Translations under genes and position numbers: made by a program
Source of the DNA: Ferruginibacter sp.
GTDB lineage: Bacteria; Bacteroidota; Bacteroidia; Chitinophagales; Chitinophagaceae
Length of the DNA stretch: 64,000 nucleotides
Assembly (NCBI GenBank): GCA_019638575.1
Contig: JAHBTN010000005.1
Coordinates: forward strand, 62,001 to 126,000
Direction: 5' to 3'
The notes under the pieces: model-generated
Told to the model about the DNA's origin: nothing
The model's input: only the letters and a program-made list of their open reading frames with translations
Database searches by the model: none
Shown here: piece after piece, positions 62,127 through 64,000 of the stretch
How positions within the stretch are numbered: the first letter of the stretch is position 1
Layout: each line of letters begins with the position of its first letter

Positions 62127-62693
62127 TTACAATCCGTTTTTAAATTGAGCAAAAAACAACTTTTTTAACCTTACCAGGCATTTATATTTCTGGGTTTTGG
62201 CATTGTCGGCATTGGTATATCCAAAGTCAACAGCTATTTCCTGCATGTTCTTTTTTTGAATATAGTAGGCATCCAGTAAACTTTTACAAGGCTCGCCTAT
62301 TTTATTCATTGCCTCTTCCATCATAATGAAATCGGCATTATGCTTTTCATGTACTTCCAGGTCTTCTTCCACCGATACGGTTTCTTCCACATTTTCTGCC
62401 AGGCTGCCGTAGCGTTGCAATTGTTGTAATCTTTTAAGCCAAAGCCGCCTGCAAACCGAGTAGATATACGTTTTTAACTGGCAATGCAACTCAAAACTGC
62501 CCGAAATAGCTTTTTCATAAACTACTATCATTGCCTCCTGGAAGATATCCCTGGCTTCATCACTATTACCATTATTGTTAAGTATAAGTGATTGAATCAT
62601 AGGATAGTTATCTCTATATATCGACTCAATAACCTTTCGGTCGTTTAATGCCACTCCTTCCAGTAAGTGTTTGTCCTGTTCTGAATTTGTCAC
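62127..62693 (-). CDS. ECF-type RNA polymerase sigma factor
   Basis: 188 aa: region 2 (IYRDNYPMIQSLILNNNGNSDEARDIFQEAMIVVYEKA, split) with the RDIFQEAM helix, and region 4 (EPCKSLLDAYYIQKKNMQEIAVDFGYTNADNAKTQKYKCL). The start is GTG 62693; the first ATG would remove part of region 2. It heads an operon with the anti-sigma/protease fusion and probably drives its own promoter, GGGTTAC...CGTAT (complement 62707-62732). Confidence 0.9.
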   Translation of the reverse strand: MTNSEQDKHLLEGVALNDRKVIESIYRDNYPMIQSLILNNNGNSDEARDIFQEAMIVVYEKAISGSFELHCQLKTYIYSVCRRLWLKRLQQLQRYGSLAENVEETVSVEEDLEVHEKHNADFIMMEEAMNKIGEPCKSLLDAYYIQKKNMQEIAVDFGYTNADNAKTQKYKCLVRLKKLFFAQFKNGL

Positions 62694-62706
62694 ACCTTAT
62701 TTATTA

Positions 62707-62732
62707 ATACGTATAATTACTTAATGTAACCC
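62707..62732 (-). promoter_or_regulatory. Candidate ECF promoter of sigma/anti-sigma operon
   Basis: On the complement strand, GGGTTAC (62726-62732) and CGTAT (62707-62711) are separated by 14 nt, an ECF-like -35/-10 pair just upstream of the sigma gene GTG at 62693. The same -35 core appears on the opposite strand at 62767-62773. Confidence 0.5.
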
Positions 62733-62766
62733 AAAACAACGAAAAAAAAAGTTTTAAAAAAAGTTG

Positions 62767-62791
62767 GGTTACCTTTTTTTAATCCCGGTAT
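62767..62791 (+). promoter_or_regulatory. Candidate ECF promoter of the repeat lipoprotein gene
   Basis: GGGTTAC (62767-62773) followed after 13 nt by GGTAT (62787-62791), 43 bp before the lipoprotein ATG. Together with the divergent copy it forms the inverted repeat GTAACCCAA (62726-62734) / TTGGGTTAC (62765-62773). Confidence 0.5.
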
Positions 62792-62833
62792 AAATATCAA
62801 ATTATAATTTTAAAAAATTAAACAAAACACAAA

Positions 62834-63034
62834 ATGAAAAAAGTAATCTTAGCTTTAGCAATCGTATCTGTATCTTTTGCAGCTTGTAACAATTCTGGTG
62901 AATCAACTGAACCAAAAACTGATACTCCAGCAGTAGAAACTCCAGTAGCTCCTGCAACTCCAGATACAGCAGCTAAAACTGCAACTCCAGATACAGCAGC
63001 TAAAACTGCAACTCCTGATACAACTAAGAAGTAA
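62834..63034 (+). CDS. Small lipoprotein with TPDTAAKTA repeats
   Basis: 66 aa. The lipoprotein signal ends in FAACN, and the rest is an unstructured Thr/Pro/Ala-rich tail containing two exact copies of ATPDTAAKT and a shortened third. It is probably a surface or periplasmic spacer, expressed from the ECF-like promoter upstream. No family is recognised. Confidence 0.85.
   Translation: MKKVILALAIVSVSFAACNNSGESTEPKTDTPAVETPVAPATPDTAAKTATPDTAAKTATPDTTKK
62954..63022 (+). repeat. 27-bp tandem repeat inside small lipoprotein gene
   Basis: Two identical 27-bp units (62954-62980 and 62981-63007, each starting GCAACTCCAGATACAGCAGC) followed by a partial, diverged third unit. Units are in frame (9 codons), so copy number can vary without a frameshift. 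Confidence 0.9.
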
Positions 63035-63109
63035 TCAGAACCCGGTTGTTTGATAGCTGGGTTTGAATAAGCTATTGAAGAATATAATTCTTTAGACAAG
63101 CAATCATAC

Positions 63110-63140
63110 ATGCCCCGCTTTTTTAAGCGGGGCATTTTTT
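63110..63140 (+). terminator. Terminator after lipoprotein gene
   Basis: ATGCCCCGCTT (63110-63120), loop TTTT, AAGCGGGGCAT (63125-63135) and a T run. The T tract also supplies the -33 TTTG of the pheA promoter. Confidence 0.93.
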
Positions 63141-63168
63141 GCAGAATTAAATTGTTTACCTATTTTTG
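63138..63168 (+). promoter_or_regulatory. pheA operon promoter (Bacteroidota -33/-7)
   Basis: -33 TTTG (63138-63141), 19-nt spacer, -7 TATTTTTG (63161-63168): a full match to the Bacteroidota consensus TTTG/TAnnTTTG. The transcript should begin near 63173, only a few nt before the leader peptide ATG at 63177. Confidence 0.75.
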
Positions 63169-63176
63169 ATTTTCAA

Positions 63177-63257
63177 ATGACAAACAAAAGTGCAAATACC
63201 TGGTTTTATTTTAGCTATTATTTTAGTAATAGACCGGGAGCCTTTGTTATAAACTGA
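63177..63257 (+). CDS. Aromatic-rich leader peptide (pheL-like) of pheA attenuator
   Basis: 26-codon ORF, ATG 63177 to TGA 63255-63257, with the run WFYFSYYF (codons 9-16: Trp, four Phe/Tyr, Ser, three Phe/Tyr) and another Phe later. Such density of Phe, Tyr and Trp codons directly upstream of a Phe-biosynthesis gene is the hallmark of a ribosome-stalling leader. It sits 8 bp after a consensus -7 box. Confidence 0.8.
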   Translation: MTNKSANTWFYFSYYFSNRPGAFVIN

Positions 63258-63316
63258 AACAAAACAGACTAACATAAAAAGTGTCCCCCGGTATAAAAAG
63301 CCGGGGGATTTTTGTT
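63233..63316 (+). promoter_or_regulatory. Transcription attenuator (antiterminator and terminator hairpins) of pheA
   Basis: The terminator is TCCCCCGG (63284-63291) with CCGGGGGA (63301-63308), 9-nt loop, then TTTTTGTTT. The competing pairing is ACCGGG (63233-63238, inside the leader ORF) with CCCGGT (63287-63292), which uses up the terminator's left arm. A ribosome stalled on aromatic codons 63201-63224 leaves ACCGGG free, so the antiterminator forms; a ribosome moving on to the stop covers it, so the terminator forms. Confidence 0.8.
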
Positions 63317-63320
63317 TAAT

Positions 63321-64000
63321 ATGAAAAGAAAAGTCTCCATCCAGGGCTTCGAAGGCTGCTTTCACCAGGTAGCTGCACGCCAGTATTATGGAAAAGATAC
63401 GGAAGTAACCTGTTGTTCTACTTTTAAAGAAGTAATCAAAAACACTGTTCATGATAAGCAATCGCATGGCGGCATCATGGCTATTGAAAATTCAATTGCC
63501 GGAAGCATACTGCCTAACTACAACCTTATTTTAAAAAACCAGGTGAAGATTGTAGGCGAAGTTTACCTCGATATTAAACAGCACCTGTTGGTAAATCCCG
63601 GTGTTAGACTGGAAGACATCAGGGAAGTACATTCGCATCACATGGCCATTCAGCAATGCTTTGGTTTTTTAGATAAGTATAACTGGAAACTGGTAGAAAC
63701 AGAAGATACAGCCCTGAGCGCAAAAAACATTCATCAGCATAAAAACAAACATGCTGCTGCCATTGCCGGCAAACTTGCCGCCGAGTTGTTTAACCTACAT
63801 ATTATCGCTCCCAATATCCATACGCTTAAAAATAATTACACCCGTTTTTTAGTGCTTACCCATAAGGATTACGCAACTGAAATAACAGGTGCCGATAAGG
63901 CATCGGTAAATTTTGTAACAAACCACCAAAAAGGCAGTCTTGCAAAAGTGCTTGGTAAAATTGCTGATGCAGATATAAACCTATCCAAATTACAATCTAT
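63321..64000 (+). CDS. pheA: Prephenate dehydratase, 3' end outside window
   Basis: Converts prephenate to phenylpyruvate, the committed step to phenylalanine. 226 codons are visible. The catalytic domain has IQGFEGCFHQVAARQYYG, GIMAIENSIAGSI, and NNYTRFLVL (the TRF motif). An ACT domain for Phe feedback begins at GSLAKVLGKIADADINLSKLQS and is cut by the window end. No chorismate mutase domain precedes it. The ATG follows the attenuator T-tract directly, so read-through decides expression. Confidence 0.93.
   Translation, partial: MKRKVSIQGFEGCFHQVAARQYYGKDTEVTCCSTFKEVIKNTVHDKQSHGGIMAIENSIAGSILPNYNLILKNQVKIVGEVYLDIKQHLLVNPGVRLEDIREVHSHHMAIQQCFGFLDKYNWKLVETEDTALSAKNIHQHKNKHAAAIAGKLAAELFNLHIIAPNIHTLKNNYTRFLVLTHKDYATEITGADKASVNFVTNHQKGSLAKVLGKIADADINLSKLQS

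Follow-up and report, generated by a model that had tools for sequence, protein, structure and literature searches.

At the end of the window, the 64,000-nucleotide stretch of Ferruginibacter sp. DNA analysed here, a short open reading frame (ORF) rich in aromatic codons and a terminator lie upstream of pheA, which raises the question of whether this leader controls pheA by ribosome-mediated transcription attenuation and, if so, which amino acids it senses. The original prediction had placed such an attenuator at 63138-63323, and every part that it named is present in the sequence, namely a promoter, the leader ORF, the run WFYFSYYF, the terminator and the alternative pairing ACCGGG/CCCGGT before pheA (Table 1). 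The parts inside that stretch were thus confirmed; its left boundary is less apt, as it begins at the -33 element and the transcript is predicted to run from about 63173. The terminator at 63283-63309 (GTCCCCCGGT-ATAAAAA-GCCGGGGGAT, then TTTTGTTT) has a folding energy of -19.2 kcal/mol, and the hairpin formed by regions 1 and 2 (CCUGGUUU with AGACCGGG) one of -12.3 kcal/mol. The fold of 63150-63323 as a whole has a z score of -2.95, with 1 of 200 shuffles equally stable.

Table 1. Elements of the pheA leader and its surroundings, in window coordinates.
Feature	Position	Strand	Remarks
Terminator of the upstream small-protein gene	63110..63135	+	The -33 element of the leader promoter lies in the T-tract that follows
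-33 element TTTG	63138..63141	+	Read directly; inside the T-tract of the upstream terminator
-7 element TATTTTTG (TAnnTTTG)	63161..63168	+	Read directly
Leader peptide ORF MTNKSANTWFYFSYYFSNRPGAFVIN, 26 codons	63177..63257	+	Predicted 5' UTR of 4 nt
Control codons W F Y F S Y Y F	63201..63224	+	Read from the leader ORF
Region 1 CCUGGUUU	63199..63206	+	Putative anti-antiterminator strand, from folds; pairs with 63231-63238; overlaps the first control codons
Region 2 ACCGGG	63233..63238	+	Putative antiterminator 5' strand, within the leader ORF; class-wide permutation test
Region 3 GTCCCCCGGT	63283..63292	+	Terminator 5' arm; its CCCGGT (63287-63292) alternatively pairs with region 2
Region 4 GCCGGGGGAT	63300..63309	+	Terminator 3' arm
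T-tract TTTTTGTTT	63309..63317	+	Predicted termination
pheA, prephenate dehydratase	63321..64000	+	ATG at 63321; continues beyond the window end; PF00800 at 2.9e-53

From the window into the downstream sequence, the gene order is pheA-aminotransferase-tyrA-GNAT-DAHPS/CM-aroB-aroA-aroC, and the products include a class I/II aminotransferase, a GNAT acetyltransferase and a DAHP synthase fused to chorismate mutase. Each of the eight genes passes a Pfam cut-off; NCBIfam cut-offs are passed only by tyrA, aroB, aroA and aroC. Gene order and spacing suggest that the eight genes form one transcript. By gene names, the putative switch therefore precedes the Phe and Tyr branches together with four shared shikimate steps. 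The aminotransferase gene and tyrA follow pheA in all 73 near-relative loci (defined below) for which at least 2.9 kb of downstream sequence was present, and DAHP synthase lies within the available flank in 34 of these 73. Upstream of the leader, the small-protein gene at 62834-63034 encodes, as judged by eye, an N-terminal signal-like stretch and a Cys followed by TPDTAAKTA repeats, and is probably a small lipoprotein gene.

We assessed the conservation of this arrangement in near relatives, a set that joins the locus of the window to the best 80 of 181 matches; after removal of one locus cut by its contig end (L072), 80 of the 81 were usable. The record titles mostly give Chitinophagaceae or its genera, some giving only Bacteroidetes or Chitinophagales, and one locus (L034) is near-identical to that of the window. 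In all 80 loci, window included, an ATG-initiated ORF with at least six aromatic residues in ten codons is followed by a terminator, and these ORFs encode 72 distinct leader peptides. Dinucleotide shuffles yielded the ORF alone in 6 of 800 cases and the ORF with a terminator in none of 800, which excludes a chance ORF in AT-rich DNA. The leader stop codon lies 18-39 nt before the terminator, and region 2 lies inside the leader ORF in 80/80 loci, 6-12 nt past the last aromatic codon that precedes it. In 39 of the 80 loci, the terminator is separated from the start of the PheA match by a spacer of 60-187 nt. A second promoter was suspected in these spacers and was rejected, TAnnTTTG being found in only 2 of the 39; among three spacers inspected, those of L044 and L103 resemble variable N-terminal extensions of PheA. 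One contig labelled Flavobacterium sp. MAG17 (L112) carries a pheA leader near that of a Chitinophagales locus (L100) and is possibly mislabelled.

The control runs of these 80 leaders contain Phe and Tyr codons in every case and Trp codons in 12. The leader had been expected to respond in principle to Phe, Tyr and Trp together, and an attenuator with Trp as an additional signal, a single leader then reporting on the three aromatic amino acids, would suit the TGG found as the first codon of the run in the window and some near relatives, as well as the shared shikimate genes of the operon. We regard this extension as rather unlikely: Trp occurs in only 12 of the 80 runs, and the TGG codon lies within region 1, where it may be retained for pairing with region 2. 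Moreover, Trp has its own leader in this genome, since trpE is preceded by the leader MKMILTNNNNWWWGISE (locus L174), found by eye, which contains WWW, has a CATATTTG box of the CAnnTTTG type 8 nt before its AUG and is followed by a hairpin with a T-tract. Among 31 trpE-type loci of the family, this one included, 29 were flagged, of which one (L202) proved spurious on reading; adjacent Trp codons are found in the leader at 28/31, and a (T/C)AnnTT(T/C)G box stands 5-10 nt before an in-frame ATG at 23/31. Sensing of Trp by the pheA leader would thus be lineage-specific at best, and this part of the original prediction should be dropped.

Other amino-acid genes of this genome gave a mixed picture. 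A scan for near-leaderless ORFs behind TAnnTTTG found no short ORF at the trpE, ilvD and second homoserine-dehydrogenase loci, and the first thrA stretch used in that scan (L175) ended short of the thrA start. On the reverse strand of L179, at about 1655-1750 and upstream of the aspartokinase/homoserine dehydrogenase gene (thrA), a short ORF ends in CTTTITTR; the end of its coding sequence doubles as the 5' arm of a hairpin that is followed by T residues. This could conceivably be a Thr/Ile attenuator of another geometry. In the 330 nt upstream of leuA, no attenuator was found by eye. HisG (PF01634) was not found in the genome, which is rated 100% complete, possibly reflecting histidine auxotrophy or a missing contig.

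We then asked how far the arrangement extends within the class. A search of 198 class genomes with the PheA of the window gave a match in 53, the other 145 being uninformative, and a distant set of 60 loci was assembled: 48 come from genomes of other families, where 50 had matched, and 12 are weak matches within the family. An aromatic leader (at least five of ten codons), a terminator and a helix between regions 2 and 3 were found together at 42 of the 60: 32/48 outside the family, across 15 of 23 families, and 10/12 within it. A stricter rule without the helix criterion retained 37 of the 60, compared with 0 of 600 shuffles. Region 2 ends within the ORF, stop codon counted, in 34 of the 42 positive loci, among which L114 is a weak member. 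By the criteria used, the remaining 18 of the 60 loci lack the arrangement, including all six from family f13.

In these loci, the two antiterminator strands remain complementary while their sequences change. In the distant set, the paired strands diverge widely, as in CGGGGCC/GGCCCCG (L115), GAAGCGGGA/TCCCGCTTC (L149) and GATCGGGT/ACCCGATC (L169). Across the 42 distant loci, a locus's own region 2 and region 3 strands score 20.2 on average versus 14.5 when permuted, and none of 5000 permutations, which leave shared ancestry in place, reached the value of the own strands; the same test gives 11.8 for a control stretch taken upstream of the leader. A locus's own arms outscore at least 90% of the other loci's arms at 24 of the 42. 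Pairing between strands of such different sequence is hard to attribute to ancestry alone.

In the near relatives, where half of the loci (40/80) have the consensus on both strands and are hence uninformative, two-sided changes occur in L098 (GGCGGGAT/ATCCCGCC), L087 (CGGGGG/CCCCCG) and L086 (GCCAGGATT/AATCCTGGC). Not every change is matched: region 3 has changed and region 2 has not in L036 and L039, where four pairs remain; a group with ACGGG or GCGGG as region 2 has lost one pair, with region 3 unchanged; and in L107, L109 and L111 the locus's own arm pairs worse than those of other loci. The comparison with pheA upstream regions of related Chitinophagaceae, which had been proposed as a check, returned the aromatic run and terminator in 80/80 loci and a 2:3 core of only 4-5 pairs in 17 of them, for most of which the region 2 of other loci would pair better. 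When duplex energies were permuted over the 75 distinct loci, 0/5000 permutations reached the observed value for either 2:3 or 1:2, shared ancestry again remaining in the test. The probability of 1:2 pairing is at least 0.5 in 61 of these 75 loci and below 0.5 in the other 14. In many relatives, the conserved string CTTTTGTTG pairs with a CAACAAAG-like sequence near the leader start, giving a long stem around the aromatic run (ten folds). The same string, or CTTTTGTTA, recurs after region 2 in L034-L113, despite being translated in more than one frame (as LLL or FC).

These observations bear on the possibility that the terminator merely lowers basal read-through into pheA and that the short ORF is a passive or independent small peptide, with no regulation by amino acids. 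The 18 distant loci without a leader by the criteria used and the 17 near relatives with a short 2:3 core would fit such an account; nevertheless, the aromatic run, the 6-12 nt spacing to region 2 and the 2:3 complementarity persist while the nucleotides diverge, and the shuffles exclude a chance ORF, so we consider it very improbable. An Rfam scan of 62600-63700 returned 21 matches up to E = 5, none at the cut-off of its family. One subthreshold match, to Trp_leader at 63041-63140, was rejected as a finding, as it covers the tail and terminator of the upstream gene. Direct binding of a metabolite or tRNA by the leader RNA, as in a riboswitch or T-box with the ORF incidental, is scarcely credible: the leader is structured, as its z score indicates, but none of the 21 matches is a riboswitch or T-box by name, and what is conserved is an ORF, with its aromatic run, whose codons vary synonymously and which contains region 2.

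We therefore favour, with high confidence, the reading of the pheA leader as a ribosome-mediated transcription attenuator of the pheL/trpL type, which by its codons would sense charged tRNA-Phe and tRNA-Tyr. At the sequence level, the locus has the aromatic-run ORF, the terminator, an antiterminator with matched changes across relatives (L036 and L039 unmatched) and a 1:2 anti-antiterminator. The core of the original prediction, an attenuator with an aromatic leader ahead of pheA, is supported by the conservation, the mutually complementary antiterminator strands and the gene content, which, like the anatomy, are direct observations.

From these parts we infer stalling, coupling, termination and the identity of the sensed amino acids, and the attenuator would operate as follows. 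Transcription is predicted to begin only a few nucleotides ahead of the leader AUG, which would let a ribosome load at the 5' end almost immediately. When Phe or Tyr is scarce, the ribosome would stall on 63204-63224 and cover region 1, leaving ACCGGG free; this strand could then pair with the emerging 5' arm of the terminator, and transcription would continue into the Phe/Tyr/shikimate operon. When both amino acids are ample, the ribosome would reach the stop codon, with region 2 behind or under it or held by region 1; region 2 being unavailable, regions 3 and 4 would form the terminator.

We modelled this sequence of events by folding the transcript before the terminator 3' arm is made, with a ribosome placed at each codon. 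A first measure of region 3 pairing, which counted any upstream partner, was uninformative and was replaced by the specific 2:3 pairs. In the near-relative loci, mean 2:3 pairing in this model is 0.94 with the ribosome on aromatic codons; a ribosome at the stop codon lowers it to 0.51 when base pairs are allowed to bridge the ribosome and, by construction, to 0 when they are not. For the window, the value is 0.95 while the ribosome occupies any of codons 6 to 15 and falls to 0.24 once it reaches codon 16, the final Phe of the run. Because the 2:3 helix also forms with the ribosome on codons 6-8, ahead of the aromatic run, aromatic codons have no special status in the model. Without a ribosome, again before the 3' arm is made, 2:3 forms as well (0.61 in the window, mean 0.92), and because of this the model alone does not demonstrate that untranslated RNA terminates. 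At equilibrium, the full leader RNA folds into the 1:2 hairpin plus the terminator; antitermination would therefore need the kinetic order of events. Because the 1:2 hairpin can precede region 3 and the equilibrium fold contains the terminator, untranslated RNA of the window species would be expected to terminate.

The least expected feature of the pheA leader is its very early predicted translation start. A sigma-70 promoter scan found no promoter at the leader site, as expected for Bacteroidota, and the TAnnTTTG box was used instead. In Flavobacterium psychrophilum, this box spans -12 to -5 (PMC9723704); applied to 63161-63168, this rule predicts that transcription begins at 63173 and leaves 4 nt ahead of the AUG. 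In 76 of the 80 near-relative loci, a TAnnTTTG or TAnnTTCG box stands 4-12 nt upstream of the leader AUG, a count that favours short spacings in that the ATG near the promoter box was chosen at the 14 loci with more than one in-frame ATG; the spacing places the predicted 5' UTR at 0-8 nt. In 65 of the 76, a TTG begins 21-23 nt before the first nucleotide of the box, and of the four loci without a close box one (L039) is truncated by a contig end. A separate count that accepted any qualifying ATG with a box 3-12 nt before it likewise gave 76/80, with 0/800 shuffles. As a rough background, we applied the same rule to 156 long genes of the window and the near-relative contigs, with the most upstream ATG taken for each long ORF and a strict promoter; none starts so near a promoter, and only 1 of the 156 has a complete promoter within 60 nt. 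For comparison, PMC9723704 gives a leaderless rate of 5.5% for F. psychrophilum, and PMC7366714 gives about 3.7% of UTRs shorter than 10 nt for Bacteroides thetaiotaomicron. The suggestion that the leader is translated from a nearly leaderless transcript is thus borne out as a prediction, the promoter-to-AUG spacing being conserved in near relatives. Most of the trpE leaders examined show this close spacing as well. Only 2 of the 60 distant loci combine leader and terminator with such a close box, which indicates that the early start is a trait of the window's family, Chitinophagaceae, and dispensable for the mechanism. It is conceivable, if short of probable, that the pheA and trpE attenuator leaders of this family constitute a designed near-leaderless class, in which the promoter keeps a set position, a few nucleotides ahead of the AUG, to let the ribosome load at the nascent 5' end and couple to RNA polymerase as soon as the first codons are read, free of competing folding, in a phylum largely without Shine-Dalgarno initiation.

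Judged from comparative sequence, the attenuator is real and very probably functional, of a known kind, and present in much of one Bacteroidota class. Classical attenuation that reads Phe and Tyr together would thus precede pheA both in Chitinophagaceae and in 15 of the 23 further families sampled in the class, its antiterminator strand being part of the coding sequence of the leader peptide. With its near-zero predicted 5' UTR, conserved in near relatives, the leader renders the tightness of ribosome-RNA polymerase coupling testable in a phylum largely without Shine-Dalgarno sequences. Because no family of Rfam 15 reaches its cut-off on the element, a new Rfam entry may be warranted. We found no published description of a Phe/Tyr leader or of the near-leaderless trait in Chitinophagaceae, in a search that mostly covered literature outside subscription journals.

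Among known systems, Escherichia coli pheL-pheA likewise has a short Phe-rich leader (15 residues in the K-12 region) and a terminator before pheA, together with a competing antiterminator. In contrast to pheL, Phe and Tyr alternate in the present leader, which heads a Phe, Tyr and shikimate operon and has a predicted 5' UTR of 0-8 nt. In the present system, the antiterminator 5' strand lies inside the ORF in all 80 near relatives. The covariance model of the Rfam family Phe_leader (RF01859) was missing from the 21 matches at E values up to 5; the pheA leader would work like Phe_leader without being a sequence member of it. Within the phylum, the original prediction had put it too strongly in stating that no well-described case was known, and this claim should also be dropped, as two precedents exist. 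The first, Bacteroid-trp (RF01692; PMC2864571 and the Rfam description), is a leader-peptide element of an aromatic operon, though a Trp leader; it was not among the matches in 62600-63700 and is subthreshold at the trpE leader of this genome (25.8 of 49 bits). The second is a conserved structured 5' element of pheA, without an Rfam hit, in F. psychrophilum and other Flavobacteriaceae (PMC9723704), which shares gene and phylum with ours and is likened to it by description, not by sequence; the same source gives clues to leader-peptide attenuation upstream of amino-acid operons in Flavobacteriaceae. Short ORFs reminiscent of leader peptides have also been noted in 5' UTRs of B. thetaiotaomicron (PMC7366714). 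Finally, attenuator peptides on leaderless transcripts are described for Sinorhizobium meliloti trpL (PMC7298713) and Corynebacterium glutamicum ilvBNC (PMC11857589); these resemble the pheA leader in their leaderless leader peptides and differ from it in belonging to other phyla and in responding to Trp or branched-chain amino acids.
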